Shown piece by piece: positions 1-16,836 of a DNA stretch of 64,000 bases (its first letter is position 1; each line of letters starts with the position of its first letter). Below the pieces are notes generated by a model. It saw only the letters and a program-made list of their open reading frames with translations. It searched no databases and was not told where the DNA came from. Position numbers and translations under genes: made by a program. This DNA comes from Stappia indica (GTDB taxonomy: Bacteria; Pseudomonadota; Alphaproteobacteria; Rhizobiales; Stappiaceae): NCBI RefSeq assembly GCF_009789575.1, contig NZ_CP046908.1, forward strand, positions 868,001-932,000, written 5' to 3'.

Positions 1-98
1 ATGAGGGCCTGAAGCGGCGTTCGCTCGTTCATGTTGCGGCGCTGATGCGGGCGTTTGGTGTTGTATGTGACGAGCCAGGTGTCGAGCGCCTTCTGCAT
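1..98 (-). pseudogene. transposase C-terminal remnant
   Basis: The minus strand reads an open C-terminal stretch containing LVTYNTKRPHQRRNMNERTP, which matches the end of the DDE integrase core of IS3/IS481-type transposases (Y-N-x-x-R-P-H-Q followed by R-T-P). The frame meets a TAG stop exactly where the CTAG edge of the neighbouring element begins (99-102), so no upstream part of the enzyme is present on this side. The fragment continues past the left window edge. It is non-functional; only the family assignment is uncertain. Confidence 0.6.
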
Positions 99-368
99 CT
101 AGGTCGTGAACTCATAATTCTGGCGAGAAACGGTATGCCTGAACCTGATCGGGCACAAGGAGCAAGCCTGCAGGAAACCGTCCGGTTTTCAAGGTCTTGC
201 GACGCTGTTGCCGGCAGGTTCGCCCAGACCCGAAGGGCGTCGGCCTGACTTCGATCTGCGGCGTCGGATCGCTCGGCCGGGGGACCTGCCCCGGCCATCA
301 CGCTCCTCCTAGCATATCATTGCCGGGCCAGACGCCGTTTCCCGCACAATTATGAGTCCACGACCTAG
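99..368. mobile_element. MITE-like element with CTAG target duplication
   Basis: Positions 99-102 and 365-368 are both CTAG. Directly inside them, 103-119 and 348-364 are inverted repeats agreeing at 16 of 17 bases (GTCGTGrACTCATAATT), and weaker similarity continues to a shared GAAACGG about 30 bp in. The 262-bp interior has no credible gene. A 4-bp YTAR duplication is typical of IS5-group transposition, so this looks like a non-autonomous derivative of an IS5-type element. The right CTAG supplies the TAG stop of the secreted-protein gene on its right. The first 364 bases hold only this and the transposase remnant. Confidence 0.6.
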
Positions 369-1894
369 TCGATGGTCCCCGCACCCTCCGGAGCGATGCC
401 GCTCCCGTTCGTTTGCGTGCCCTCGGTTTCCGGCGCCGCCCCGGCGGAGCCGGCCGCATCCGGCGATGCGGTTCGCTCGAATGCCGCAACGAACATGTTC
501 TGCGGCACGCTGCCAAGCATGAAGATATCGAGGAGGCCGCGGAACCCGAAGGAACTCAGGAGCAGCGCCCGATCGCCGGAAATCAGGAACAGAAGCTCGC
601 CATCCTCACCTCCAGACCTGTGGCGAGAATAAAGCCAATCGTCGGGCGAGCCGATCCACTCGTCCAACGACCCGCCGCCCGTTGCCGGAATGGTGTTCGC
701 GAGAAACGCCTGCAGGTTCGCCTTGTTCGCCTGCTGTTCGGAGTCGAACGTCCAGCCAGGCTGGGCTGCGGTGAACCTGTTCCCGTTGCTTTCGATCTCG
801 ATGGTCGATGGGATAAGGGCCCATCCGTTCGCCGGGTCCTCGGGTCTCCAGACGCGCAGATGCGGAACGCCGTAATGCGGCTGGCCGACCATCCTCCACT
901 CCCCCGCGGGGCCTCGGTTCGCCGTAGCCGCCGATGCAGGACCGGTTTCGCCCTCGCCGGCGGCCTGGCTGCCGGAGGCCGGGGGCACGGGCGTGAGAGG
1001 GCCATCGAGCGGCGTCAGAGCGAACACGGGAGAGAACGTGGCGCCATCCAGGTTTTCAATCCGCGCGACGATGGCGATGCCGTCGAACGGAAGCATCCTG
1101 ATGCGCGCCGTCTGGCCGATCTCGGTATAGTCGGCGGAGGTGGCGGCGGTCCCTTCATAGAGGCTGCCGGTCCCGGAAAGCTGCGCATTCATTCGCATCG
1201 CGAACGGATAAAAGGTCTCCGCCACCTTGTGAAAATTGGACAGCATCGGGAAATTGAAAAGCGTGTGGCTGCTGCTTTGCACCGGGATCGCCTGCAGCGT
1301 TCCGTTGATGCTTCCCGGCCCATCGGCGGAAATCGCCGCCTCCAGCCTCAAGCTGCCGAAATCGGCCTGCCAGTTGCCTTCGGCCCACTCAGCGGCGGGG
1401 CTCGGCTTTTCGTCGGTGCGGGTGACCTCGACGCTCGTCGGAAGCTCGCGGCCGCGCCGCGTGCCGAGATGCTGCAATCGCCCCAGTTCGTTGGCGAAGA
1501 AGGCAAGGCGGACCGGGAAATCCTGGCCGAGCCAGTCGGAGCGGAAGGCGCCTTCGTAGAGGGCGACGAACTGACCCGGCTCGGAGGCCAGGCTCAGTTC
1601 GCCCTCGATGGCGAAGGGCCCATCCTTGTCCACCTTCTCGCAGATCCGTTCGACCAGCACCGGCATGTTCTGCGGACAGATGACCTGTCCTCCGACCGGA
1701 CCATGCACAAGGCCGATCACCGGATAGGAGGAGCCGGACGATGGTTCGACATAGAAATCGATGACGAACCCGTAGCCATCGGCAACCCATCGGCCGACGG
1801 GAGACTTCTCCGACTGTGCCTGTGCGGTTGCGCCCGGCAGCAAGACGGAAAACACGCATGCCAGGAGGAAAAGGGCACGACCTACCTTGTTCAT
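365..1894 (-). CDS. secreted protein of unknown function
   Basis: I do not recognise the family of this 509-residue protein. It starts with a Sec signal peptide (MNKVGRALFLLACVFSVLLP, cleavage near ATAQA) preceded by a GAGGAG ribosome site, so I chose this ATG over upstream ones. The mature part has two beta-rich modules opening with short W-containing motifs (VGRWVADG and EGNWQADF) and a C-terminal tail of about 40 Gly/Ala/Glu/Thr-rich residues. It is the last gene of a four-gene leftward run of exported proteins, 11 bp behind the SH3-domain gene. Its TAG stop lies in the CTAG edge of the adjacent MITE-like element, so the C-terminus may have been set or trimmed by an insertion. Confidence 0.7.
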   Translation of the reverse strand: MNKVGRALFLLACVFSVLLPGATAQAQSEKSPVGRWVADGYGFVIDFYVEPSSGSSYPVIGLVHGPVGGQVICPQNMPVLVERICEKVDKDGPFAIEGELSLASEPGQFVALYEGAFRSDWLGQDFPVRLAFFANELGRLQHLGTRRGRELPTSVEVTRTDEKPSPAAEWAEGNWQADFGSLRLEAAISADGPGSINGTLQAIPVQSSSHTLFNFPMLSNFHKVAETFYPFAMRMNAQLSGTGSLYEGTAATSADYTEIGQTARIRMLPFDGIAIVARIENLDGATFSPVFALTPLDGPLTPVPPASGSQAAGEGETGPASAATANRGPAGEWRMVGQPHYGVPHLRVWRPEDPANGWALIPSTIEIESNGNRFTAAQPGWTFDSEQQANKANLQAFLANTIPATGGGSLDEWIGSPDDWLYSRHRSGGEDGELLFLISGDRALLLSSFGFRGLLDIFMLGSVPQNMFVAAFERTASPDAAGSAGAAPETEGTQTNGSGIAPEGAGTID

Positions 1895-1905
1895 CGTCTC
1901 ACTCC

Positions 1906-2604
1906 TCATCTTGCACGCAGGTACTGACTTGAAACCCAGCCCATTGCCCCGGAAGGGCCTGCGCTCCTGTCGGCAACGAAACACCAGCCGTCCTGGCAGC
2001 GGCCGTAGCCGGCCAGCCCGCATCGATCGGCATCGAGCGTGCCGACCACTCCGAACTGCGTTCCCGGACCGGCACGCATGTTGAGCGTGCTCGAAATGCC
2101 GCTCACGCAGAACGGACCGAGGCCTGCGACCGGCCTTGCCGGGGCGGCCGGTTGGTTGGCTGCCGGCCCGGATGGCCTGGCGCCACCCCGCGCAGGGCCG
2201 AGATAGGAAAAGACCAGGTTGGCGTTCGGGCCTTCATGGACGTTGTTGACGATCCGGCAGCCGGAAGGTGCCAGAACGGGCGCGGCGCCCGAGAGCGCCA
2301 GATCGCCGGCCGGGCGGTAGTCGCCATAGACGAAATAGTCGATGTCGCAGCCGGGTCGGAAGATCCGGCTCATGCCCTCGAGATAGGAATCGGCGTTCAA
2401 CTGGCCTTCGAAGAGCACAGTGCCCGGACGAACGCCCTGGGACACCAATCCCGGTCGCGGCGTTTCGTAGACGATGCGGACGGTGTTGCGGTCCTGGCTG
2501 ATGAGCATGATCGAGCCATTGTGCTCGTAGCGACCCTCCGCATGAGCGGGCACGATGCCCAGCATCAACGCCCCTGCTGCAAGTCCCGGCAGACAGCGGA
2601 TCAT
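1906..2604 (-). CDS. secreted protein with C-terminal bacterial SH3 domain
   Basis: 232 residues. A signal peptide (MIRCLPGLAAGALMLGIVPAHA) follows an AAGGAGA ribosome site. The N-terminal half is an unrecognised domain with two cysteines; a Pro/Ala-rich linker follows (about 145-165). The last 65 residues form a bacterial SH3-like domain: LNMRAGPGTQFGVVGTL, then a Cys pair around GRCQDGWCFV and a closing GWVSSQYL. Such domains usually bind peptidoglycan or periplasmic partners, which fits export to the envelope. The start overlaps the stop of the upstream gene by 4 bp, indicating translational coupling. The SH3 call is firm; the role is unknown. Confidence 0.75.
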   Translation of the reverse strand: MIRCLPGLAAGALMLGIVPAHAEGRYEHNGSIMLISQDRNTVRIVYETPRPGLVSQGVRPGTVLFEGQLNADSYLEGMSRIFRPGCDIDYFVYGDYRPAGDLALSGAAPVLAPSGCRIVNNVHEGPNANLVFSYLGPARGGARPSGPAANQPAAPARPVAGLGPFCVSGISSTLNMRAGPGTQFGVVGTLDADRCGLAGYGRCQDGWCFVADRSAGPSGAMGWVSSQYLRAR

Positions 2605-3914
2605 GACCGGTCTCCTTCCAGGATGGGATCGAGATAGGTGCCCGGCACATGCCCGCGCATGCCGCTCCACTCGACCTCGCACCAGGCCGTGGCCAGCAGG
2701 TCGCGCTTGCCGGCGCGGTCGGCCTTTTCGAACGTCATCGTGTCGATCTCCGGCGTGCAGCCGAGAACGAGGATCTCGCTGGCATCGCCCCCCATGGCAC
2801 CGACCGCCTGTCCGTCCCGCGATGGCCGGTCGCGCAGACTTAGCCGGCGTCCCTCGGGTACGTTGCGCAACCGATAGGCCGGCCCCCAGACCCCGATTCC
2901 CGGCATGTCGCCTTCCGCCTCGGCGTCGGCGCCGGCGTCGGCGTCAAAGCCGTCGTCGCGGCGCAGCCGCACCAGGCTGACATGCCTGTCCTCCACGAGA
3001 GTGCCTTCGACGATGCCGTCCTGCCGCGGAAACCCGAGCAACAGGATGCCTTCGCGTCGTTCGCCCGACCCGTCCGCGTGGAAGGTAATGTCGAGGCTGA
3101 AGCCGCCGCCAAGTGCGGCGCGGGGCGCTACGGCGACGTTGGTCAGCGGCCCGAAGCCGGCGGAATCGACCTGCCCGCCGCCGGACAACTGCCAGGACTG
3201 TCCACCGAGATAGAGCTCGCCCATGGAGCGGCCGTCGTCGAGGCTCTCCACGCGCCAGCGCGTGGAACCGCCCGGAGCGGCCGGCGGGGGCGCGGCTTGC
3301 TGGCGGGATGCCGGAAGCAAGCCGGAGGGAGCCCTGGCAAGTGCCGGATAGCGGGCCAAAAAGGCCGGATCGACCAGGGGACCGGAAAACCGGGCCGGCT
3401 GGCGCCGGAGCGCGTCGAGGCGTCCCTCGTCGCACATCGAGGATTGGCAGGAATGCGCCCGGCGGGTCATCGCGATGTCCATGTCCACCCCGCGGTCGGG
3501 ATGCAGCATGAAGAGCCGGTAGCGGCCCGCTTCCGCGGTGATCTCTGCGATCCGGACGGCATCGTCCCCGGGGATCGTGAAGGCGACCGTCGCCGTGGTC
3601 GGCGTGAAGCGCACTCCCCTGACCTCCCCCGATATCAGAGGCTGGTCGGTTCGCGCCCACAGATCCATGCAGAACTCCCGGCGCATGGCGGTGGTGCGGC
3701 AGGGTGCGGCCTCCGACAGGAACATCACGACGCTCGCCATGCCGGCGGTGCCGCCGGCAAGCTGGTCCAGTTCGATGGTGATGCTCTGCTCGCCGACCGG
3801 AAGGTCGGCTTCGAACCCGCCATACCAGGGCCCCATCTCCTGAGCGCCGGCCAAGGGCAATGATGCGAGAAGAAGCGCGGCGGCGAGTGCCGGAAGGGCA
3901 AGCCTGGATGTCAT
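2601..3914 (-). CDS. secreted protein with C-terminal SH3-like segment
   Basis: 437 residues with a clear signal peptide (MTSRLALPALAAALLLASLP, cleavage after AGA). The body is beta-rich and holds a Cys pair (CRTTAMRREFC) and a second pair near QSSMCDEG. A central Pro/Ala-rich linker leads to a module starting TRWRVESLDDG. The last 80 residues resemble an SH3 domain (LSLRDRPSRDGQAVGAM ... GHVPGTYLDP). It is the second gene of the leftward exported-protein run, 43 bp behind the 722-residue gene and overlapping the next by 4 bp. No enzyme motif is visible; an envelope binding or scaffold role is inferred. Confidence 0.65.
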   Translation of the reverse strand: MTSRLALPALAAALLLASLPLAGAQEMGPWYGGFEADLPVGEQSITIELDQLAGGTAGMASVVMFLSEAAPCRTTAMRREFCMDLWARTDQPLISGEVRGVRFTPTTATVAFTIPGDDAVRIAEITAEAGRYRLFMLHPDRGVDMDIAMTRRAHSCQSSMCDEGRLDALRRQPARFSGPLVDPAFLARYPALARAPSGLLPASRQQAAPPPAAPGGSTRWRVESLDDGRSMGELYLGGQSWQLSGGGQVDSAGFGPLTNVAVAPRAALGGGFSLDITFHADGSGERREGILLLGFPRQDGIVEGTLVEDRHVSLVRLRRDDGFDADAGADAEAEGDMPGIGVWGPAYRLRNVPEGRRLSLRDRPSRDGQAVGAMGGDASEILVLGCTPEIDTMTFEKADRAGKRDLLATAWCEVEWSGMRGHVPGTYLDPILEGDRS

Positions 3915-3957
3915 CGTCTGGGCCTCGCTGGATTGGTTGCCGGAACGTGGGGCACGG

Positions 3958-6126
3958 TCATCGAACCAGGTCGATCACGGTTCGAAACGCCGTTTGCTGA
4001 CGGCTGCTGGCGAAGCCGAGGAGCAGACTGCGCTGGAGGCACGAGATGTCATCCGGGTCCGTGCCAGCGGCCGAATTCTCGAACTTGCTCGCCAGGGCAC
4101 CCTTGAGAGGGAGTTCGATGCGATTTTCGCCCATTTTTTCGTCGCGGCGGGGATCGCGGTGGCGCCAGACCTCCCCTTCCAGATTGACGATGATCTCCCG
4201 ATCCGGATCGGAGAACAGACCCTCGGGCACATCAATCGTGATTGCCCTGCGTCGAGCCTCCAGGGGCGAGCCGGCAGTCAAGGGGCACGCGGCGCGTTCT
4301 TCGCGCGCGGCATATTCCGGCGGCGTCACCACAAACACGCTGTCGCGGTCGCCGGTCACGGCGACGCGGTAGTCCTGCGGGGCGTCCCAGATATCGACCC
4401 ATCGCGGCGTTTCGGCAGCGCGGCTGTAGGTGTCGGCACCGGTGCGAAACTGAACCAGCGCCCTGAGCGAGCCGTACAAGCGCGCCGTCCGCTCGCCGCC
4501 GACGAACCCGGTACCGGCATCGTAGAGCAGCGTGTCGGGCGTGATGACGATCTGCTTCGGCTCCGGCGCAAGACAGCCGGCCGCGCAGATGTCGGCGCCC
4601 TCCGTCCACCAGGCCGCCAGCGCTGCCTCGATCCCGGCATCGGGTCGCACGCCGCGAAAGAGAGCGGGAATGTTGGCGGATGACCGGATCAGACGGCGCA
4701 AATTGGCCCGTGCCGAGGTCACGCTGCCCGTCAGCGGCTCCAGGACGGTGTTGCCGTCGACCCGACCCTCGATCCGCCCCCCCGGCATCCCGGCCTGTCT
4801 GCGCAAGGACGGTGCGCGATAGGCGAGCGCCCAGGAGCCGGTGAACTGGCGGCTTGACGGATGGCCTGCCAGGCGCAGCGTGCCCCACGAACCGCTCGGA
4901 TTGAGCCCGGTGTCGTCCAGCGTCATCCAGATGCCGCGAAACTCGCCGGCCGAGAACATGCGGCCCAGAACGACGGCCGAGCCGGGCGCATAGGCATTGA
5001 TGTTTCCGTAGACCATACCGTCTGCGTCGGGCGCCGACATGCGCATGATCGCGCCATGGCCCATCGGCCCGATCCGGCTGCCCGACATCGTCAGGCGCCA
5101 TTCGCCGATGCCGTAACCCTGGTCTGCCGTGCCGGGCGCGGGCAGATCGTCGAAGGCAAGCCAGGCCGAGACCTCCGCGGGAGGCCGGCCGCTCCAATCG
5201 GAAGGCATGAAGACGGTGGCTGCATCGGGAGCCGGCGGCGGAACGTCCGAGCCTTGCTTGTAGCCGTACCAGATGGCGTCGTTCTGTTTGGTCGCTTCGA
5301 TCGTCCGGCCTTGCTTTCCGGAAAACGACAGATTGTCGCCGCCCATCGACACCTCGAAATAGGTGATCGAGGAGGGTATCAGCGGATCGGGCGAGACCAC
5401 GCTGGTCGCCTCGTATCCGCGCAGGACGCGCCCGCTCGGCGACAGCCGGGCTTCGATCCGCCCGGTAGAGCCGATGAGGCTGCGTGTCCCGAAAACACGG
5501 GAGCCTTCCTTGTAGAGGATCAGGGCGCCGTCGGCGTCCCAACGACCTTCCCACATGGACACAGGCCGCGCATCGGCAGGCTGGACCTCGTCCTGCGAGG
5601 ACGGATCGAGCACCCCGGCATCCGGCGTCTCGCTGCCGAAATCCAGCCAGGCGATGATCGCAGGATTGGGCGCCGGGCCGAGGCTGGAGGGATAGTTCGT
5701 GCCCCGAGCGCGGGCGCTGCGGAGGATCGGTTCGGCTGAAGAGCGGCGCTCGCCGTAATGGAGCGGACCTGCCCACACATTGGCTGCAGGTTCCGGAAAG
5801 GCGCTCAGGCTGAGCGGCCCGACAAACACGTCGGTCCCGTGCAGGCGCATCTCGGTGAAGCCCCGGCGGCCGTCGCCAAACTGGAAGGCGGCGCGCATGG
5901 ACCGGCCGTCGCCGCTCACGCGGCCTTCGAAAAACCCGCCGGCGCCGATCTCGCCGAAAACGCGCCCGTCGTTCTCGACGATGCGCCACTCCTCGCCGGA
6001 GGTGCTCCATGTGCCCTGCCAGTTCGCAAGTGCCGGGGCCGCCTGGCCGAGTGTGGCCGCAAGCACCACCAGTATCGCCAGCAAGGACCGGCCGGTTCTG
6101 GCATGCAGTCTCCGAATGGACCCCAT
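3958..6126 (-). CDS. large secreted beta-repeat protein of unknown function
   Basis: 722 residues. The signal peptide ends near APALA, residue 34. The mature protein contains at least three modules that begin with a short Trp-Gly-Trp-like motif (WQGTWSTSG; MWEGRWDADG; GIGEWRLTMSG), each continuing with alternating strands rich in G and F such as GRVFGEI and VFGTRSL. This suggests tandem lipocalin-like or jelly-roll units, although I cannot name a family. A Cys pair (ICAAGC) and a later Cys lie in the C-terminal third. It is the first gene of the leftward run; one copy of the repeated 16-bp palindrome lies 60 bp upstream of its start, next to the divergent regulator gene. Confidence 0.65.
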   Translation of the reverse strand: MGSIRRLHARTGRSLLAILVVLAATLGQAAPALANWQGTWSTSGEEWRIVENDGRVFGEIGAGGFFEGRVSGDGRSMRAAFQFGDGRRGFTEMRLHGTDVFVGPLSLSAFPEPAANVWAGPLHYGERRSSAEPILRSARARGTNYPSSLGPAPNPAIIAWLDFGSETPDAGVLDPSSQDEVQPADARPVSMWEGRWDADGALILYKEGSRVFGTRSLIGSTGRIEARLSPSGRVLRGYEATSVVSPDPLIPSSITYFEVSMGGDNLSFSGKQGRTIEATKQNDAIWYGYKQGSDVPPPAPDAATVFMPSDWSGRPPAEVSAWLAFDDLPAPGTADQGYGIGEWRLTMSGSRIGPMGHGAIMRMSAPDADGMVYGNINAYAPGSAVVLGRMFSAGEFRGIWMTLDDTGLNPSGSWGTLRLAGHPSSRQFTGSWALAYRAPSLRRQAGMPGGRIEGRVDGNTVLEPLTGSVTSARANLRRLIRSSANIPALFRGVRPDAGIEAALAAWWTEGADICAAGCLAPEPKQIVITPDTLLYDAGTGFVGGERTARLYGSLRALVQFRTGADTYSRAAETPRWVDIWDAPQDYRVAVTGDRDSVFVVTPPEYAAREERAACPLTAGSPLEARRRAITIDVPEGLFSDPDREIIVNLEGEVWRHRDPRRDEKMGENRIELPLKGALASKFENSAAGTDPDDISCLQRSLLLGFASSRQQTAFRTVIDLVR

Positions 6127-6186
6127 CGCAAAGCGCTCCTGTAACCGTCTCTCAGCACACCTGAACCCGCATCGGGATCGGTGGCG

Positions 6187-6202
6187 TCACCCAAATGAGT
6201 GA
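6187..6202. promoter_or_regulatory. palindromic operator copy 1
   Basis: TCACCCA-AA-TGAGTGA: 7-bp arms with one mismatch around a 2-bp centre. It lies in the divergent gap between the 722-residue secreted protein (60 bp away) and the hydrolase-LuxR regulator (171 bp away). The same sequence recurs at 9530-9545 and 11442-11457. It is probably the binding site of a dimeric regulator, most simply the LuxR-type protein encoded alongside. A TATAAT at 6339-6344 may be the -10 box for the regulator gene. Confidence 0.65.
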
Positions 6203-6373
6203 GACGGCTGCAGTCGGGGCGCTCCGTTCGGGCCCGCAGCGGAAGAGGAGCCTTGCAGAGGATCGGGCGATGTCCCGGCCCGCTGGCGGTCCGGACAAAG
6301 GTTAACGAATTCATCGCCTGTTCATTTTCGCATCGGCCTATAATGACCCAGACGGCTGCGAGGGGTTGGGTTC

Positions 6374-8197
6374 ATGCTCGATGTGGAGGCTCGGACACGA
6401 TACGTGCTCGGCGATGGAGGAGCCCTGCTGCTGCATCGCCACTGGCGCGGCGAGCGTCGTGCTCCGAGCGTTTTCGTCGGACACAGCCAGCCCACCCATT
6501 CAGGCAATGTGACGGATATCGCCGCGGCGCTGGCACGCAGCGGATTCGACGTGCATGCCGGCGACCTGAGAGGCCATGGCGGCTCGGTCTCCGCGCGTCA
6601 GCCGCTGGGACATCTCGACCGGCACTCGGGATGGCAGCAATTGATCAGCGACATGCAGACGCTGACCGAGATCGCCTTCGAAGACGTGCCCTGGGAAGAC
6701 CGGATGATGGTCGTTCCGAACATTTCGGCGTTGCTGACGCTGGAGCTCTTGAAGATCCAGCCGGATCTTTGCCGCAACATCGTCTTGATCTCCCCGCCGC
6801 CCAACCAGAAGACTTTGTGGATGCTCGCCAACGCGTTCGTCAAGGCGCGCATGCTGATCTGCGATCCGGCAAAGCCCGATGAGCACACGCTCTACCACCT
6901 CTACAGCTTTCTCGGCGCGCACCTGAACGAGAAGAACCACCTTGCCGATGTGATGACACCGGACCGCACCATCATCGATGCACTGGTTGCAGATGACGCG
7001 GCATGGCCGACGCCGACGCTCGCCTACTGGACGTCGATCTTCGGCGGCTTTCAGAATGCCTGGCAATGGCCGAGAGGCGCAAAGGTCAAGCCGGGAACGC
7101 GGATACTCCTGATGTATGGCGGCGAGGATCCGATGATGGGGCTCGGCAGCTTCATCGATCCGATGAAGGCATGGTTCGGCGCACGCGGGCTCGACGACGT
7201 CAGCGCCTATCGGGTGGAAGGCGCGCGCAGCGCTCTCTTTCTCGACGAGAAGCGTCTTTCGGTCTCGCAGGCGATCCTGTCCTGGCACAGGGATGGGAAG
7301 CTTGCCGAACAGGAGGCGGAACCGACCGCCACTTCGATCGAGAACCTTTCCTCGCGCATCGTGCGCATGTTTGCCGACGACACCGCCATCGGCAACGAGC
7401 TCAATCCGGAAGACCTGGTCGAGCTCTGCTATACGGCCATCGACGACGAAGGACGGCTCACCGAAATCATGTACCGGCTCGCGCTTGCGATCTCGCGCGA
7501 CGATCGGCTGGATGCGGCGCAGGTCGAGCAACTGGTGAGCACCTTGATGCCGCACTGGGACCGCTCGTACAAGATCAACCGCCAGATCCTCGACAACGCG
7601 GCCATCGGCGTCGTTCTTCAGAGCGTCATAGAGCGGTTCGAAATCGGCGTGGCGATGCTGAGCGATACGGGCCGCCCTGTCTTCTTCAACGGCTCTTATC
7701 GCAAGGCGCTGCAGCGCTGCGCTTCCGACGTCGCGCTTCCCTGCGATGAAAGCGTCGCCAAGGCGACGGAGAACCTCCTCCGGCGCGCCGGCATCGGCGC
7801 GAGCGCGCAGGCGACGATCAACGAGGCCGTAATCGTTGTCGAAAACGATCCGGTCGGATTCTACTTCCGTCCGCCGGTCCTGCGCCAGACAGGGTTGCTG
7901 CGCGAGGGGCCGTCGACCATCCTGGTGCTGCGCAACCCGAGCGACCGTACCGGCTCGACGGCCGACAATCGCCTCGCCCTGATGCAGCTTGCCTACGGTC
8001 TGACGCAGCAGGAAGCGAATGTGGCGCTCAAGATTGCGGCCGGACTGTCGCCCGAACAGACCGCCGCGGAACTCGGCGTTTCGATCCACACCGTCCGCAC
8101 GCATCTGAAACGCAATTACGAGAAGATGGGGGTGCAAGGCCAGACGGCTCTGGTCTCGCGCATCATGTCCGGGCCCATCGGGTGGTTGGGCGCGTGA
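6374..8197 (+). CDS. degenerate alpha/beta hydrolase fused to LuxR-type HTH regulator
   Basis: 607 residues. Residues 1-310 follow the monoacylglycerol-lipase type of alpha/beta hydrolase: LRGHG at 65-69, strand-loop LLMYGGED at 245-252 with the acid Asp, and a GAR motif at 283-285. The nucleophile elbow reads PNISAL (115-120) and lacks both glycines of GxSxG; the position of the catalytic His after GAR is Ser286. The domain is therefore probably a non-catalytic ligand sensor. Residues about 320-535 form a linker region, perhaps PAS-like. Residues about 540-598 are a GerE/LuxR helix-turn-helix (LTQQEANVALKIAAGLS, then TVRTHLK). A GAGGGG ribosome site precedes the ATG. It probably controls the surrounding genes through the repeated palindrome. 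Confidence 0.8.
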   Translation: MLDVEARTRYVLGDGGALLLHRHWRGERRAPSVFVGHSQPTHSGNVTDIAAALARSGFDVHAGDLRGHGGSVSARQPLGHLDRHSGWQQLISDMQTLTEIAFEDVPWEDRMMVVPNISALLTLELLKIQPDLCRNIVLISPPPNQKTLWMLANAFVKARMLICDPAKPDEHTLYHLYSFLGAHLNEKNHLADVMTPDRTIIDALVADDAAWPTPTLAYWTSIFGGFQNAWQWPRGAKVKPGTRILLMYGGEDPMMGLGSFIDPMKAWFGARGLDDVSAYRVEGARSALFLDEKRLSVSQAILSWHRDGKLAEQEAEPTATSIENLSSRIVRMFADDTAIGNELNPEDLVELCYTAIDDEGRLTEIMYRLALAISRDDRLDAAQVEQLVSTLMPHWDRSYKINRQILDNAAIGVVLQSVIERFEIGVAMLSDTGRPVFFNGSYRKALQRCASDVALPCDESVAKATENLLRRAGIGASAQATINEAVIVVENDPVGFYFRPPVLRQTGLLREGPSTILVLRNPSDRTGSTADNRLALMQLAYGLTQQEANVALKIAAGLSPEQTAAELGVSIHTVRTHLKRNYEKMGVQGQTALVSRIMSGPIGWLGA

Positions 8198-8257
8198 TCG
8201 TCGCGATCAGGCCTTCGGAGCCGGGCACGCCGCTTGACGTGACGCGGGAGCTGCACC

Positions 8258-9541
8258 TTGTTTGAATCCGCGACGCTGCTCCTCGTCCTCTTGACGCCGC
8301 TGGCCATCGCGATCCTGCGTTCGCGGCGAACCACCGTCGCGGACTTTGTTCTCAACTCCAACAGAAGTTCGCTGCTCCAGACCATCGCCAGCATCGTCGG
8401 CGGCAATGTCGGCATCGGCACCTTCATCGCCATCTTCCTGTTTTCCAACGCCAGTCCGCTGATCGGCATTTCCCTGGCGGTGACTTACACGGCCGGGCTC
8501 CTGCTGTGCGCCCTGGTCGCGCCCCGGGTGCACCGGGCCTCGCGCGACAACGACGCATTCGGCCTTGTGGATTTCATCGCCTCGGCGCACGGCATCGGCA
8601 ATCCGGCATTGATCTGGCTTCCTGTCGCAGTGGTCTTCATGCTGCGCACCGTGGTTCAGGTCATGGCCCTGGCGGCAATCGTCGGCGCGGTCTTCCAGCT
8701 GCCCTTCGTGCAGGCGCTCGGTCTGTCGGCTCTGCTGGCATCGACCTATGTCGTCGTGGGGGGATACAAGGCGGCGACGGAGACCGACATCTTCCAGGTC
8801 GCCATCATCGTCACTGTGATGGTGCTCGCGCTCTTCGGACTGACGTTCGAATTCGACCGGGAGCGCGACTATCTCGACCTCGGCCCCTACAAGCCGATCC
8901 TGCTCCTCGGCATCTTTCTCTTCATTCCCTTGAGCCCGATCCTTGCCGTCGACAACTGGCAGCGCATCGCCACCGCGCCGTCGCCTCTCGTCGCCAGGCG
9001 CGCCTACATGATCGCGGCACTCATCTGTGGGGCGATCTACACGATCATCGTGATGGTGGCGCTGCAGACAGGCCCGGCAACGGATGTCCTGGAGCGGTTT
9101 CGAAACCTGATGCCCGGCGGCCAGAGATGGTTGGCGGATGCCATGTTCGCCGCCTGCATCATGTCGTCGATCGATACCTTCGTGATGCCGCTCGTCACGA
9201 CATTCGCCCGGAAAGGCCTTTCCCTGCGCTCCCTCAGGGCCCTGGTTGCGGGGCTCTTCCTGGTCGTCGCCACCGTCGCGCTGGCGATCGGCGACATCCT
9301 CTCCGGCATCATCGCCGCCTTCAACAGCCTCACCGTGTTCCTGCCTGCCGTGCTCGGAGCCCTTCTGCTCCGCAAGCCATCGCCTCGCGCGGCCGTCTCC
9401 TCGCTCTGTCTGGGCGTCGTGAGCACGCTGCTTCTTTCCACCGTCGACATCAATTCCGCGGCGCTGGCCGGGTTTCTGCTGAGCGCTGCGACCTACGGCC
9501 TGGTCCATTGGGTCGACCGGCGCCGCGCCTCACTCATTTGA
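8258..9541 (+). CDS. sodium:solute symporter-like membrane protein
   Basis: 427 residues with about eleven to twelve hydrophobic segments. The segment IVGGNVGIGTFIA (about 46-58) and the charged loop VVGGYKAATETDIFQ (about 166-180) resemble conserved parts of the SSS (SLC5) fold, so a Na+-coupled transporter or a transporter-like sensor is likely; the substrate is unknown. Translation appears to begin at TTG 8258 behind a GGGAG ribosome site. It follows the regulator gene by 60 bp on the same strand, suggesting co-transcription. Its TGA stop (9539-9541) lies inside the second copy of the 16-bp palindrome. Confidence 0.65.
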   Translation: MFESATLLLVLLTPLAIAILRSRRTTVADFVLNSNRSSLLQTIASIVGGNVGIGTFIAIFLFSNASPLIGISLAVTYTAGLLLCALVAPRVHRASRDNDAFGLVDFIASAHGIGNPALIWLPVAVVFMLRTVVQVMALAAIVGAVFQLPFVQALGLSALLASTYVVVGGYKAATETDIFQVAIIVTVMVLALFGLTFEFDRERDYLDLGPYKPILLLGIFLFIPLSPILAVDNWQRIATAPSPLVARRAYMIAALICGAIYTIIVMVALQTGPATDVLERFRNLMPGGQRWLADAMFAACIMSSIDTFVMPLVTTFARKGLSLRSLRALVAGLFLVVATVALAIGDILSGIIAAFNSLTVFLPAVLGALLLRKPSPRAAVSSLCLGVVSTLLLSTVDINSAALAGFLLSAATYGLVHWVDRRRASLI

Positions 9542-9545
9542 GTGA
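9530..9545. promoter_or_regulatory. palindromic operator copy 2
   Basis: TCACTCA-TT-TGAGTGA is a perfect palindrome in both 7-bp arms. It straddles the stop codon of the symporter-like gene and lies 215 bp upstream of the DUF3137 gene. That 215-bp gap holds no gene I can support and presumably contains the promoter and leader of the DUF3137-lemA pair. Confidence 0.65.
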
Positions 9546-9760
9546 CGTCTGGCGGAAAGAACCCTGATTGACTGGCTCCATGGTCGGAAACCTCGATCAG
9601 GGATCTACGCATGGGCTCTCCAGCACTCCCGGCAAATGGCAGGGGCATCCATTCCGGAGCCCGGGGTTCCGGCGCGGCTGCGCCCTGCCCCGCCCTGCGC
9701 CGTCGTGCGAGGCAGCCGCGGCGACGCGGCCGAGCGAGTTGAAGACAAGGACACATCGAC

Positions 9761-10738
9761 ATGCCCGGGGAAATTCCGCAGGTCTGGGACCCCTTCGTCG
9801 GCACGCGCGACGCCGAAGTTCAGCGCATCACACCGCCGACAGGCGGCCTGAACATCCCGGCCTGGGTCGGGCAGGCATTTCTGCTGCTTGCTCTCGCCGC
9901 GGTTGTCGGCATCGTGATCTCGATCTTCTGGCGGGATGCGGCATGGGTGGCCGTTCCGGCCCTGGTCGTATCCATCGCCGGGGTGATTTCGGTCGACTAT
10001 CTGGGCAAGGCGAAGGGCAAGCGCGATTGGCGCTTCTTCCGCATCGCCGAGGAAAACGACTGGTCGTTTCGGCTGATCGCCCCCGAAAGCCGGCGCAAGG
10101 TCAACGGCCGCACCGTCATCACGGTCGACCCGCTGGCCAGGCAGGCCTATGAGCGCATCGGCGCCCTGTGCCGGCCGCGCACCGGCCAACTCATCCCCTT
10201 GAAGTTCCAGGCGATGTACTGGGGCCGCACGCCCGACGAGATCCCGTTCTGGCTTGGCCTGCAGGAATACGAGGTCGATGCGTCGATGGCCGTCGAAGCG
10301 CTCAAGAAGGACGGTTTCAACAATCGCTCTGCACGGGGCAAGCTGTACAACATGGTCGTGAGCTATCGGCTCGACCGCGACACGGGCATCACCGCAAGCC
10401 TGCTGGCAGAAGCCTTCGACCGCGACGGCTGGCGCGACGTGAAGACCGAGTCCGCCGAGTTCAACGCCCGCTTCAAGATCGCGGTCGAGCCGGCGCCCGG
10501 ATCTCGGACCGACGCGCAGATGGCGCTGCTGCGGGCCCTGACCCCCGCCACCCAGGCCACGTTGATCGCCCTGGACGACCGCTACCGGCTTCAAATGATG
10601 ATCGACGGCGACACCATCCACCTCAGTGGAACCGACCGCATCATGAGCGAAGACGAAGCAGTCATCGCGGCGCACGTCAATGAACTCGTCAACGGTTTTG
10701 CTGCGGCTGCCGTTTCGTTCAAGCGCTTTGTCGAATAG
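9761..10738 (+). CDS. DUF3137-family membrane protein
   Basis: 325 residues. Two hydrophobic segments lie near residues 34-52 and 58-75, followed by a cytoplasmic domain with the DUF3137 pattern: FRIAEENDW, then EFNARFKIAVEP and RALTPATQATLIALDDRY near the C-terminus. The DUF3137-LemA gene pair is common in bacteria and its biochemical role is unknown. LemA follows 12 bp downstream, so the two are probably co-transcribed. The second copy of the palindrome lies upstream. I am confident in the family, not in a function. Confidence 0.8.
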   Translation: MPGEIPQVWDPFVGTRDAEVQRITPPTGGLNIPAWVGQAFLLLALAAVVGIVISIFWRDAAWVAVPALVVSIAGVISVDYLGKAKGKRDWRFFRIAEENDWSFRLIAPESRRKVNGRTVITVDPLARQAYERIGALCRPRTGQLIPLKFQAMYWGRTPDEIPFWLGLQEYEVDASMAVEALKKDGFNNRSARGKLYNMVVSYRLDRDTGITASLLAEAFDRDGWRDVKTESAEFNARFKIAVEPAPGSRTDAQMALLRALTPATQATLIALDDRYRLQMMIDGDTIHLSGTDRIMSEDEAVIAAHVNELVNGFAAAAVSFKRFVE

Positions 10739-10750
10739 CCGAGGCCTACG

Positions 10751-11326
10751 ATGTTTGAACTCCTGCTCATTCTTGCCGTTGCGGCAATCCTGATCGGCTA
10801 TATCGCTGTTTTCAACGGACTTGGGCGTGCGGTCACGCAGGTCGTCCAGGGCTGGGCGGGCGTCGAGGTGCAACTCAAGCGCCGCCACGACCTGGTTCCC
10901 GGACTGGTGTCTGCGGTGCGGGCGGCGCAAAAGCACGAGGTCGACGTTTTCGACCGGCTGCTTTCGGCGAGGGCGCAAGCCATGGCGGCCATCGCGAGTG
11001 CCGACAGGCAACAGATCGCGACCGCGGAAGCGGCCCTGGGCAGATCGCTCGGCAATCTCGTTGCCTACGCGGAGGACAATCCCGAGGTGACGGCGACGGC
11101 GAACCTGCAGACGCTTCAGCGGCAACTGGAGGAAACCGAGGACCAGATCGCCGCCGCGCGGCGCCTCTACAATGGCAACGTCCAGAACCTGAACGCTCGC
11201 ATCGTAACGTTTCCGGGCAATCTCGTTGCCTCCATTCATGGCTTCCGGCCGGCGCAACCCTTCGAGATGACCGGGCAGGAGAAGGCGGTGACCTATGAAG
11301 CGCCCATTCTCAAGCTCGACACGTAG
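10751..11326 (+). CDS. lemA: LemA family protein
   Basis: 191 residues, close to the usual LemA length. An N-terminal membrane segment (about 2-22) is followed by the characteristic VEVQLKRRHDLVPGLVSAV (about 39-57) and the coiled-helical bundle ending in RLYNGNVQNLNARIVTFPGN with ASIHGF. LemA proteins are N-terminally anchored helical-bundle proteins often associated with envelope stress or with DUF3137 and TPM proteins. Here it pairs with the DUF3137 gene just upstream. The gap to the next gene (11327-11514) carries the third palindrome copy. Confidence 0.9.
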   Translation: MFELLLILAVAAILIGYIAVFNGLGRAVTQVVQGWAGVEVQLKRRHDLVPGLVSAVRAAQKHEVDVFDRLLSARAQAMAAIASADRQQIATAEAALGRSLGNLVAYAEDNPEVTATANLQTLQRQLEETEDQIAAARRLYNGNVQNLNARIVTFPGNLVASIHGFRPAQPFEMTGQEKAVTYEAPILKLDT

Positions 11327-11441
11327 CCGGCCCGGACTGCTCCGTTCGTGCCGCCCGGCGGGATCGTCTCGACAGACGCAGCTCCTTCGAGGCGCGAGCC
11401 GTGTGCCCGAGTGAATTGGAAGGCCGCTCGATGACCGCCCG

Positions 11442-11457
11442 TCACTCATTTGGGTGA
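11442..11457. promoter_or_regulatory. palindromic operator copy 3
   Basis: TCACTCA-TT-TGGGTGA has one mismatch in the 7-bp arms and lies 57 bp upstream of the small secreted-protein gene, nearly the same spacing as copy 1 has to the 722-residue gene. TAGCCT at 11480-11485 could be the -10 box, which would centre the site near -42, a usual activator position. That promoter reading is inference. Confidence 0.6.
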
Positions 11458-11514
11458 CTGAGCCTCGGCGCCCGCGCGCTAGCCTTCGGTGACTGAAGCA
11501 TCCGGAGGCCTGAC

Positions 11515-12078
11515 ATGCACCGACTTCTGCCCATCCTGGTTGCGGCTCTCGCGTCGGCTTCGGCGACGGTGGCCCTGTCTTCCGAAGACGAAGCGAACCT
11601 CACAGACGCCCTGGCTCGGGATCCCGGGCTGAGCTTTGCCGCCTTGTTGCCCACCGCTATCGACGAGGCATCGGAAGATGCGTTCCGCAAGCGCCCGACC
11701 ATGGTGGTGAACGCGGACGGGGAACCGTTCCAGGTGTCTTTCGACATGTCCATGCCGGACTATCCGAATGTCACCATGACCCTCGCCATCAGCGAGGATG
11801 CGAGCTTTCTGAGGCTGATAGAGCGGATCTTTTCCATGGCGTCTGCCGGCGTCGTGCCCGGCGGCAACGCCGACACCGATTTCCCGGACGGTTTCGACTG
11901 TGTCGGCGATGTTCGCAGCCTCCTGATCTCGTGCCGCATGGGCACGGCCGGCATCCAGTTCTCGGCCAGCGATTACGCCGGCGGCAACTCGATCGACTAT
12001 GAGGCGACCAAGTCTCTTTTCGCGACATTGCCCATGGAAACCTACCGCCGCCTGTTCGGCCCCGCACAGGAAGAGTGA
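11515..12078 (+). CDS. small secreted protein of unknown function
   Basis: 187 residues with a short signal peptide (MHRLLPILVAALASASA) preceded by GGAGG. The mature part is acidic with no lipobox and has two cysteines (FDCVGDVRSLLISCRM) that could form a disulfide. No family is recognised. It is the first gene after the third palindrome copy and lies 80 bp before the signal peptide of the VWA protein; a GTG in frame with that gene at 12075 overlaps this stop, so the two are probably one operon. Confidence 0.65.
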   Translation: MHRLLPILVAALASASATVALSSEDEANLTDALARDPGLSFAALLPTAIDEASEDAFRKRPTMVVNADGEPFQVSFDMSMPDYPNVTMTLAISEDASFLRLIERIFSMASAGVVPGGNADTDFPDGFDCVGDVRSLLISCRMGTAGIQFSASDYAGGNSIDYEATKSLFATLPMETYRRLFGPAQEE

Positions 12079-12158
12079 CCCCAAGGCGGGCAGGACAGGC
12101 ACGCCGCCCTGCCCCGTCGCACCCGTTCCCGGCCCCCCGTTCGAAAGCGCCAGAACCG

Positions 12159-14987
12159 ATGACCGCCTCCCTGAAACGCATCTTCTCTCTGCTGACCGGC
12201 CTTTCGGCGGCCGCCCTTGCCATGCCGCCCGCCGCTGCGCAATCGCCGACCGCCGACACCATCATCGTGTTGGACGGCTCGGGCTCGATGTGGGGGCAGA
12301 TCGACGGCAGGACGAAGATCGAGATTGCCCGCGAGACCCTGTCGGGCGTGCTGCTCGACGTTCCGGCCTCGATGAACATCGGAATGATGGTGTATGGGCA
12401 CCGCGTGCGCGGCCGGTGCTCGGATATCGAGGAGGTCGTGCCGGTCGGCCCCGCCGGGCAGACGGTGCCGCGGATGATCGATGCGGCTGCCGCCGTCAAT
12501 CCGCGAGGCATGACGCCGCTTTCGGCGGCCGTCCGCCAGGCCGCGCAGACCATGCGGCATACCGAGCGGGCGGCGACGGTCGTGCTTGTGACCGACGGTA
12601 TCGAAACCTGCGACGCGGACCCTTGTGCGCTCGGCCGCGAGCTGGAGGCGGCCGGGATCGATTTCACGGCTCATGTCGTCGGGTTCGGGCTTTCCGGTGA
12701 CGAGGGCCGACAGGTCGCCTGCCTTGCCGAGAACACCGGAGGCCTCTACCTCGCCGCCGACGATGCCGAGGGCTTGAACGCTGCCCTGCGCCAGACGGTT
12801 GCGGTGGACGAGCGCGACTTCGTCGACGATGTCGCCCAGATCGAGCCGGCAGACAGCGATTTCGTCGACGAGGACCCCGCCGCCTCGCCGCGCCGCGTCG
12901 AGTTCATTCTTCGCGACACCGACGGGGGACCGCAGCTGACGATCCGGAACGTCCAGATGACCGTCGAGGCCGCTGGCGAAGGATCGTTCGAGGATTTCGA
13001 GCTCTACTACGAGGACCGCCCGTTCACCGCGGCCGGAACCTTCGTTCCGGGACGCTACATCGCCTATGTGACGCGAGAGGAATCGCGCAAAAACCAGATC
13101 CGCACACGCCTCGAATTCGAGGTCGAGCCGGGAGACGGCACCCAGACGATCGAGCGCACCATTGCCGCCCGGCTGCGCGTGAACACCTTCATCAACGCCG
13201 CCGAGCCCCTGGCGCCGGGGGAAACGGTTCGAAGCGGCGTCGCGGGATCGGGCGGCGCCTATTACTGGGCCTATCCGGTCGTCGATGGCGCGGTCGACGA
13301 GGCCAATGTCATCACCGACACGTCCGCCTCCTTCGACCGCACCCTCCCGCCGGGCACCTATCTGCTGCGCGGAACCTTTGCCCGCACGATCACCCGCGAG
13401 AAACTCGTCACCGTGAACGCGGGCGGGACCACGGAGCTCGATTTCGATTTCGGCCTCACCCGGGTCTATTTCGACGTCCGCGACGCCCAAGGCTTTCCCG
13501 CGGCCCGTCAGACGACATTCCTGACGGACCAGCCGACCGGGACGAGCCGCTCCATCTACTTCGCCAGCGGCTCCAGCTTCAGTTCCTCGGGCGATCCGGG
13601 GCCGTTCTTCCTTCCCAGGGGACTGTGGCGGGTCAATACGGGCGCGGAGGGCGGCGGCGCACGGCGGGCCGAGGTCATGGTGCGGGTGGACGGCAATGGC
13701 GGCGAACAGCGCCTGCGTCTCAGCGAAGGCCAGCGCCTGAGCGAACAGGACATCGCGGCAATGTCCGGCCCGGAACGCGGCCCAGGCTGCATCGCAAGAC
13801 GCGGCACCAGCAATGCCGCCAATGCCTGCCTCGTCGAAGAGGCGGACCTTTCGGGCGGCAGCGCTTCGCAGTCCGAAACGGTCGACGAGGCGGCCACCGA
13901 CGGGCCGGCAGATCCGAATGAGGGCAACGATCCGCAGCCCGGCCAGTCTGACGAGGCCGCGCCGTCGGACGGGGCGGCACTGCCTCCCGGCATCTACGGT
14001 GTCCTGCCGGGAGCCGACCACGCCTCGCTCGACAGCCAGCAGATCGCCAGGGCCGTCAACGCCTGCATGTTGCGCCCCTACATCGCCTATCCCGACGGAC
14101 TCCTCGTCGCGAAGACATTCGAGGCAGAGCTGGCGAACGCCGGCCGGTCACCGTATCGCATCGCCAATCACGCCTTCTGCACCCGCGGCGCGAACACGCT
14201 GCGCTGCGATGTGCGCGCCGGCGATATCGGCACAGGCGGGACCGGGAACCAGATCGTCGCGGCAATCTCGATATCGGACGAAGGCCATATCAACCTGGCG
14301 CCCGTGGATGGCAGCACCGGCTCGCTGTTCTATGCCTGCGTGCGTCCGGGCGGCGAAATCGATGTCGCCGAGACGCTTCCCGACGGTCGCCGGGCGATCG
14401 ACCACATCATGGCGCGAAGCGACGGCGGCCCGGAACTTTCCTATGCGGACGATGGCACCTATCGGGGACCCGCAGAGCCCGGAGCGCCGGCAGGCGCACC
14501 CGAGCCCGGCGGCGATTTCTCCGCCGTTGCCGGTCTCTACGGGTTCCTGAAACCGGATCAGGGCTACCCGCTGGCCGGCGACGCGTTGCTGGACAGATGC
14601 TATCTCGACGGCCTGGCCCTGTTTCCCGACGGACTGGCGCAGAACTTCAGGCCGAATTTCGGCACCCAGCCGCCCGCCGGAACCATCGATGCCGTCGAGC
14701 CGATCATGCACATGTACTGCCGGGGCACGGCAGACAGCGCAAAGTGCGATGCCCATCAGGGCGGCTATCCAGGCGCCGGAGGGAAACCGCAGCTCATCGA
14801 GATGACGACGGCGGCAGCCGATGCGCTCCGGCTGTGCCAGCCGGGCGAGCCGCCCGACCGCTGCAGGATTGCGCAGAAATGCGAAAACCCTCGTCAGGCT
14901 TTCGCCGGGGACCTTCCCGCGCCGGATGGCTCACCCTGGTTCGAACGCGTCCTGAACCGCAACGACGACGGCCCGGGGCTGCAGTAA
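12159..14987 (+). CDS. secreted VWA-domain protein with duplicated C-terminal modules
   Basis: 942 residues. The signal peptide (ending PPAAAQS) argues for this ATG; a GTG at 12075 would bury it behind 28 basic residues. A von Willebrand A domain spans about 34-215 with an intact metal site: DGSGS (39-43), Thr119 in GMTPLS and Asp146 in VTDGIETCD. A long beta-rich region follows, then a Gly/Pro/Asp-rich linker. Two related modules close the protein (about 610-690 GIYGVLPGAD..., and about 790-870 GLYGFLKPDQ...), each with AYPDGL or LFPDGL and a pair of cysteines around a short C-T-R or Y-C-R motif. VWA domains bind protein partners through Mg2+, so this is probably a periplasmic adhesion or assembly factor working with the neighbouring exported proteins; that is inference. 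Confidence 0.75.
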   Translation: MTASLKRIFSLLTGLSAAALAMPPAAAQSPTADTIIVLDGSGSMWGQIDGRTKIEIARETLSGVLLDVPASMNIGMMVYGHRVRGRCSDIEEVVPVGPAGQTVPRMIDAAAAVNPRGMTPLSAAVRQAAQTMRHTERAATVVLVTDGIETCDADPCALGRELEAAGIDFTAHVVGFGLSGDEGRQVACLAENTGGLYLAADDAEGLNAALRQTVAVDERDFVDDVAQIEPADSDFVDEDPAASPRRVEFILRDTDGGPQLTIRNVQMTVEAAGEGSFEDFELYYEDRPFTAAGTFVPGRYIAYVTREESRKNQIRTRLEFEVEPGDGTQTIERTIAARLRVNTFINAAEPLAPGETVRSGVAGSGGAYYWAYPVVDGAVDEANVITDTSASFDRTLPPGTYLLRGTFARTITREKLVTVNAGGTTELDFDFGLTRVYFDVRDAQGFPAARQTTFLTDQPTGTSRSIYFASGSSFSSSGDPGPFFLPRGLWRVNTGAEGGGARRAEVMVRVDGNGGEQRLRLSEGQRLSEQDIAAMSGPERGPGCIARRGTSNAANACLVEEADLSGGSASQSETVDEAATDGPADPNEGNDPQPGQSDEAAPSDGAALPPGIYGVLPGADHASLDSQQIARAVNACMLRPYIAYPDGLLVAKTFEAELANAGRSPYRIANHAFCTRGANTLRCDVRAGDIGTGGTGNQIVAAISISDEGHINLAPVDGSTGSLFYACVRPGGEIDVAETLPDGRRAIDHIMARSDGGPELSYADDGTYRGPAEPGAPAGAPEPGGDFSAVAGLYGFLKPDQGYPLAGDALLDRCYLDGLALFPDGLAQNFRPNFGTQPPAGTIDAVEPIMHMYCRGTADSAKCDAHQGGYPGAGGKPQLIEMTTAAADALRLCQPGEPPDRCRIAQKCENPRQAFAGDLPAPDGSPWFERVLNRNDDGPGLQ

Positions 14988-15025
14988 AACTGCCATGCAC
15001 TATGCCGAACGGAGATGGGTCTGAA

Positions 15026-16591: not shown

Positions 16592-16836
16592 GGGCAGCTA
16601 ATAGCCAAAGCGCCGCAGGTTTTGAACAGGAATCTTGCGCCGTCAGCCCTGCGTTTGCCGCAATGCCGCAATCTTGCCGGACGGCTGCGGATAACTGCGG
16701 GAACGGACGCAGGAACTTTGACCATCAGGACGAAGCACCCTACGCTCCCGCAATGACCTGCTATGCAGACCGCGCGGCCGAATCGCCGCTGTCGGACCGC
16801 AACGGCACTAGCGCGGCTCAGGAGCCCACCCGATCC

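Follow-up and report, generated by a model that had tools for sequence, protein, structure and literature searches.

In plants, the receptor GID1 is derived from an alpha/beta-hydrolase and has an incomplete catalytic triad, and LemA proteins form a widespread family whose function is unclear. LuxR-type activators act at a palindromic lux box, the usual position of which is centred at −42.5 according to two published accounts (PMC4471428, PMC7585371). Here, we analyse a 64,000-nt stretch of the Stappia indica genome (contig NZ_CP046908.1; hereafter the window, in whose positions all coordinates are given) that holds, at 365–14987, ten neighbouring genes encoding, on our reading, mostly cell-envelope products. 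The best explanation of the block as a whole is, on balance, that it constitutes a horizontally acquired, self-contained regulon in which a LuxR-type regulator with a catalytically dead lipase-like sensor governs an envelope apparatus centred on a VWA protein. All ten genes listed in an earlier note on this DNA are present, and its proposal that they form one regulon around the hydrolase–LuxR protein is well supported by a conserved neighbourhood, an apparently private operator, covariation between operator and regulator, and a −42.5 promoter geometry.

Candidate operator and promoter geometry

The block contains three copies of a 16–18-bp palindrome of the type GTCACYC-N4-GAGTGAC, and a single regulator gene between the first two:

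6186..6203, no strand: candidate operator palindrome 1, between the divergent gene 4 and regulator gene
6339..6344, plus strand: TATAAT, a candidate promoter for the regulator itself, apart from the palindrome, read directly in the sequence
6374..8197, plus strand: regulator, comprising an alpha/beta-hydrolase fold (residues 1–309), a helical linker, a PAS-like part (about 425–519) and a GerE/LuxR helix-turn-helix (HTH) domain (529–606)
9529..9546, no strand: candidate operator palindrome 2, at the end of the symporter gene and upstream of the DUF3137-like gene and LemA
11441..11458, no strand: candidate operator palindrome 3, upstream of gene 9 and the VWA gene, with a −10-like TAGCCT at offset 23

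In the window, five strand-wise matches at three or fewer mismatches were found where 0.04 were expected. Across the 5,116,759-base genome, GTCACTCAAATGAGTGAC at three or fewer mismatches occurs only at these three window places, with no match for the reversed control; the three copies that, in the earlier note, link genes on both strands are unique in the genome at this threshold. An alignment of five regulators led to 21 homologous loci (denoted Lnnn where named) in 84,980 species genomes, scanned with two peptide patterns that may miss relatives. In these loci and the first 24 kb of the window, CMCYCANNTGRGKG has 26 exact and 29 one-mismatch matches (reversed pattern, 0 and 1), and the exact palindrome is present in 11 of the 21 loci as well as in the window. 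Among ten whole genomes, the exact 16-mer TCMCYCANNTGRGKGA lies at 18 places in eight genomes; 17 are within system loci and the remaining one starts 27 bases left of the L031 stretch, adjoining that system. The reversed control matches once, in a single genome. Near matches, but no exact 16-mer, are present in the genomes of L017 and L023. These counts indicate that, within the genomes scanned, the operator is private to the system locus. A generic measure of palindrome-pair enrichment, noisy in GC-rich DNA, was replaced by the specific pattern; pairs were at or barely above the mean of ten shuffles in four of the 11 stretches listed (L013, L016, L029 and L030).

The sites share a fixed distance to a −10-like element. 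Of 130 flanks (65 sites, both sides), 25 have a TA dinucleotide exactly 23 bases past the 16-base core, compared with a mean of 2.16 per offset and five at the next-best offset; when only exact sites are counted, 18 of 62 flanks have it. When locus groups are counted in a hand-picked set of 43 sites (41 of the 55 matches plus two of L033; the 14 dropped, mostly weak and intragenic, include the exact sites L026:9850 and L027:4639), TA at offset 23 is found in 12 of 16 groups and at any other offset in four at most. Recounting on all 65 sites without picking left the result unchanged, and three loci outside the pattern-setting have the offset-23 TA in 2 of 14 flanks (mean, 0.23). Taking the T of this TA as −12 places the core at −50 to −35 and its centre at −42.5. 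We infer that the candidate site sits at the usual lux-box place, next to a −10 element.

Two layouts recur among the loci: type A resembles the window and carries genes for barrel and SH3 proteins; in type B, the order is often symporter, LemA, DUF3137-like gene, regulator, with VWA-cluster genes on the opposite strand. The type B regulators form a clade in the regulator tree (support 100/100). At the third base, A is found in 44 of 46 half-sites from non-type-B loci versus 5 of 40 from type B, a count based on the 43 hand-picked sites that ignores kinship and uses a pattern admitting A or C at this base and any other base only as the mismatch, with TCT under-sampled. The Fisher value of 2e-16 overstates this covariation because the sites were hand-picked and relatedness was uncorrected. 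In the recognition helix, R-T-H pairs with TCA and R-G-H mostly with TCC or TCT; L026 (R-T-H), with one TCC among its four half-sites, is an exception. Nitratireductor B36 carries both a type A system (TCAC...GTGA operators) and a type B system (TCCC...GGGA), the diverged loci L015 and L022, and versions with different operator codes can coexist within one genome.

The regulator and its probable sensor domain

In Pfam and NCBIfam, the regulator matches Hydrolase_4 (9e-17) and the GerE/LuxR HTH (PF00196, 6.3e-10, above the cut-off); PDB matches to the latter are the HTH domains of VraR, GerE and NarL, and the hydrolase domain resembles monoglyceride lipase. The PAS-like part was assigned by topology only. 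At the nucleophile position, V-P-N-I stands in place of G-x-S-x-G, and the asparagine (Asn116) is present in 23 of 23 regulators. The column that we take to be that of the catalytic histidine, assigned with the monoglyceride lipase motif, contains Ser, Thr or Ala; L029 alone has a His, one residue further. The hydrolase fold is kept, as is the acid position, with Asp252 invariant in the 23 regulators. Because the nucleophile is missing from a lipase-like fold, the domain is probably a ligand sensor for a small molecule, which lends indirect support to the small-molecule sensing suggested earlier. An autoinducer-binding domain was not found in the regulator (Pfam, E ≤ 1; a cognate synthase was not searched for).

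L029 is a divergent Novosphingobium fragment (38%, long branch) and, with its His near the catalytic position, may represent another regulator kind. Phage origin was considered and rejected: the regulator had no match among 50,697 phage records, and PHROGs, applied to six of the ten proteins, gave one weak amidase match, to gene 2.

Distribution of the gene set and its products

All 21 loci are alphaproteobacterial, from Stappiaceae, Phyllobacteriaceae, Rhizobiaceae, Devosiaceae, Ahrensiaceae, Roseobacteraceae and Paracoccaceae, with two further sources, an unplaced Hyphomicrobiales metagenome-assembled genome (MAG) and the Novosphingobium fragment, a 3-kb contig with little beyond the regulator. 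L043 is identical to L028. Gene calls at the loci come from a simple codon-usage script, and those of L022 from tblastn only. The neighbourhood comparison that the earlier note recommended gave a uniform result, the regulator having other genes of the set alongside it in all 20 loci longer than 16 kb. By tblastn with the window genes, the VWA gene is found in 19 of these, LemA in 14, the DUF3137-like gene in 14 (15 counting L031, from clustering), the symporter in 12 and SH3 genes in ten (one weak). The regulator, VWA gene and operator are near-constant; the symporter, LemA and DUF3137-like genes are common and optional. Gene order and strand differ between loci, and the exported proteins diverge strongly. 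Among loci outside the pattern-setting, L008 and L044 have the regulator, symporter, LemA, DUF3137-like and VWA genes and sites, and L045 has the regulator, symporter, LemA and DUF3137-like genes and sites. Outlying families common to three to six loci include F08 (two members), F10, F15 and F16, which are ABC-transporter parts and an FAD oxidoreductase and were rejected as system parts, being general gene types; F12, F14, F19 and F30 have no Pfam match at E ≤ 0.001, and F05 has sub-threshold matches only.

The system is rare. Whole-genome regulator searches considered at most 15 candidates per genome in the family set and at most three in the order, class and phylum sets, so that relatives may be missed. 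The regulator is present in 5 of 87 genomes of the Stappiaceae family, and the symporter subfamily in the same five; absence from the other 82 is the telling part, because the symporter alignment itself includes several of the five. Leaving out the window's genome, 4 of 86 coincide, a result expected by chance about 1 time in 2 million (a hand calculation that ignores relatedness). The scattering of homologues without each other that the earlier note named as contrary evidence was not seen for these two genes in the 87 genomes; the LemA family does occur outside the system. The order sample contains the system in 4 of 397 genomes, including the window's own, and the class (385) and phylum (398) samples in the window's own only.

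One copy, L033, is on a plasmid (Roseibium aggregatum S1616 plasmid unnamed2) and has two palindromes. The regulator tree intermixes families: the window regulator is closest to that of Aquibium (59%) and not to that of its genus-mate Stappia MMSF_3263 (L019), a type B carrier. The block adjoins guaA (15026–16591) in a variable region. Four near relatives conserve guaA and the genes downstream, and three of them the left flank as well, with other genes occupying the gap; in three relatives these gap genes, read by eye from open frames, are dehydrogenase-, efflux- or two-component-like. A search for an attachment-site duplication at guaA returned only chance-like matches of 9–13 bases, and integrase-mediated insertion is therefore not supported. 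As judged from this distribution, we regard the system as an accessory, horizontally spread regulon of Alphaproteobacteria.

The remaining genes of the block are:

365..2023, minus strand: gene 1, exported, with WxGxW-type stretches; start likely about 1894; matches in L012 and L013
1906..2682, minus strand: gene 2, exported SH3-type protein; start likely 2604, overlapping the gene 3 stop
2601..3914, minus strand: gene 3, exported, with a middle domain, a second barrel (TbpB/fHbp-like arrangement) and an SH3b-like end, from a model of the L024 homologue
3958..6126, minus strand: gene 4, exported, with two predicted avidin-like barrel modules (independent E-values, 2.7e-10 and 1.3e-3)
8258..9541, plus strand: relative of the sodium:solute-symporter family (SSF), from matches of alignment members
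9761..10738, plus strand: gene 7, DUF3137-like membrane protein, below the Pfam cut-off
10751..11326, plus strand: LemA family protein (PF04011, 7.7e-43)
11515..12078, plus strand: gene 9, small exported protein, 44% to its L012 counterpart
12075..14987, plus strand: exported VWA protein with a DGSGS motif of the metal-ion-dependent adhesion site (MIDAS); likely start 12159, not 12075

Genes 4-3-2-1 form a tightly packed run. The starts of genes 1 and 2 and the VWA gene are revised from the earlier note, and the signal peptides of genes 1–4, gene 9 and the VWA protein were assessed by eye; on this assessment, most products look exported or membrane-anchored. The family labels proposed earlier held for LemA (146 bits, exceeding the cut-off), the regulator and the VWA protein (PF13519, 2e-8), in which DGSGS, MTPL and VTDG, read in the translation, supply the DxSxS, T and D of the MIDAS. 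They did not hold at Pfam cut-offs for SH3 (SH3_3 in gene 2, 3.7e-5) or DUF3137. Gene 7 matches DUF3137 (PF11335) at 0.19 only, missing the 26.1-bit cut-off; taken singly, five of eight homologues match at 0.22–0.0011, all below 26.1 bits, and three have no match. Strong DUF3137 scores trace to a second family mixed into the alignment, hence the label DUF3137-like. The symporter-like identification stands: 9 of 12 alignment members match SSF (PF00474) with E-values of 1 or less (best, 3.7e-10), and the window protein on its own has no match. Against PDB at E ≤ 10, the profile retrieves five sequences, each an iodide or choline transporter (E 3e-5 to 2e-4). The beta-module named earlier is recast here as a predicted avidin-like eight-stranded barrel, modelled on the L024 homologue of gene 3 and also found in gene 4; absence of fold matches for other parts carries no information on those parts. 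Gene 1 has no Pfam match and matches the barrel module weakly (independent E-value, 0.18).

Several side observations concern these genes. The second, true DUF3137 family by Pfam (1e-25, two tested) lies beside type B systems at L014:4750-5727 and five more loci. At L019:7930-8640 in Stappia MMSF_3263, the usual type B place of LemA is taken by a gene whose end is LuxR-like, and the sole LemA found in that genome is distant. To the left of the block, window positions 1–368 probably represent an insertion-element remnant, with inverted repeats at 99–122 and 345–368 and ends CTAG, and the gene 1 stop codon falls inside the CTAG of the latter repeat. No RNA element was found by Rfam at gathering scores in 1–17000.

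Proposed function and comparison with known systems

In the mechanism that we favour, the dead monoglyceride-lipase-like domain would bind a small, probably hydrophobic or ester-like molecule, and the liganded regulator, presumably transcribed from its own TATAAT, would bind the 16–18-bp palindromes at −42.5 and activate promoters with weak −10 elements. Of the three window sites, the first leads genes 4-3-2-1, the second the DUF3137-like gene and LemA, and the third gene 9 and the VWA gene. The products of these genes may form an envelope apparatus centred on the secreted VWA protein, whose metal-site motif is intact. Predicted avidin-like or calycin barrels and SH3b domains would face the periplasm or wall, and the inner membrane would contain LemA and the DUF3137-like protein; the SSF transporter, often present, may import the signal or cargo. 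It is plausible that the genes remodel or survey the envelope, and we would guess that the apparatus captures or adheres to something upon ligand. A more specific version, which we put forward tentatively, is that this is an unrecognised mobile envelope machine, a VWA-centred exported complex with avidin-like barrels and SH3b domains, energised or anchored by LemA, the DUF3137-like protein and the SSF protein and deployed when needed by a new type of one-component receptor, in which an enzyme-dead lipase is joined to a LuxR HTH.

Several observations weigh against this reading. The symporter is absent from 8 of 20 loci and LemA from 6 of 20; LemA was not found in the draft genomes of L024 and L026, and a LemA gene lies outside the system in four of six genomes checked. 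The inner-membrane part is therefore not obligatory, given L024, L026 and the eight loci lacking a symporter. No VWA gene was seen within the 20 kb examined at L045, and L013 has only the C-terminal part of one within the stretch examined. The barrel model has a pLDDT of 68.8 and a pTM of 0.39, and its Foldseek match to zebavidin an E-value of 0.08. Ten of the 21 loci lack an exact operator (nine have one-mismatch sites only, and the 3-kb L029 none), helix–operator pairing is mixed in L018, L020 and L021, and L045 breaks the helix rule, with R-T-H and TCC in three of four half-sites. In the window itself, site 3 alone of the three has the strict TA; site 1 (minus side) and site 2 have T....T.

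A nutrient-uptake regulon, in which a small molecule enters through the SSF protein, is bound in the periplasm by the barrels and is sensed inside the cell by the dead lipase, would account for the presence of the SSF relative at 12 of 20 loci and its occurrence, among the 87 family genomes, only alongside the regulator; avidin- and calycin-type barrels, the predicted fold, are also commonly ligand-binding. We consider it unlikely: the symporter subfamily was not found in seven of ten genomes checked, these seven (drafts or MAGs) belonging to the eight symporter-less loci, and the eighth, Nitratireductor B36, carries it only in its other system. The optional inner-membrane genes thus weaken a pure-uptake model and point to an exported complex around the VWA protein as what the regulon chiefly produces. 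An island for surface defence or competition, induced by a foreign molecule and encoding diversifying exported proteins that change the cell surface to counter phage, predators or neighbouring cells, fits the sparse occurrence, the plasmid copy, the variable chromosomal site and the strong differences among exported proteins, but seems quite improbable, since PADLOC models match none of the ten proteins beyond weak HTH hits in the regulator (2023 library, weak evidence) and no toxin or nuclease family is among the Pfam and NCBIfam matches of the ten.

That the hydrolase domain is an active enzyme degrading the signal and tuning the regulator finds some footing in the retained fold and Asp252, but is very hard to reconcile with the triad (Asn at the nucleophile position throughout, the His replaced and shifted in L029 only), on which we reject an active-hydrolase reading of the sensor. 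Chance assembly of unrelated genes could explain parts missing from single loci and LemA genes elsewhere, and has practically no weight beside the regulator–symporter co-occurrence, the covariation and the offset-23 TA; the conserved linkage and private operator refute it. The regulon with a dead-lipase sensor is the reading that we retain. It puts LemA and several unnamed exported proteins in a portable unit under a known switch type with a candidate operator, making their function approachable by switching one regulator on or off, and offers a predicted bacterial example of a hydrolase turned receptor, with natural regulator–operator pairs that differ in specificity.

In the portions of the literature covered, LemA and DUF3137 occur together only as separate table rows, and a description of this gene set was not found, most subscription journals lying outside that coverage. 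LuxR402 of Novosphingobium is likewise a LuxR-type regulator that affects the envelope, with LemA protein lower in the mutant, but at 291 residues it is of classical length and different architecture and was rejected as this regulator (PMC10413115). With magnetosomes, the system has the LemA domain of MamQ in common (NCBIfam MamQ, 9e-19; at 67.8 bits, below the 250-bit cut-off), whereas other magnetosome families are absent from the NCBIfam tables of the ten proteins. As in LuxR-type activators, including LuxR solos, the DNA-binding domain is a GerE HTH and the palindrome is centred, by prediction here, at −42.5; in contrast to them, the sensor is an impaired lipase-like hydrolase with a helical and PAS-like part, without an autoinducer-binding domain in the Pfam table, and, among the genomes scanned, the site is found at the system locus only. 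Compared with monoglyceride lipase and other Hydrolase_4 (S33) enzymes, the catalytic Ser is replaced by the invariant Asn116, the His is also replaced and a DNA-binding domain is fused. In the predicted use of a hydrolase fold as a ligand receptor, the regulator resembles GID1, but here the fold is joined directly to a bacterial HTH.

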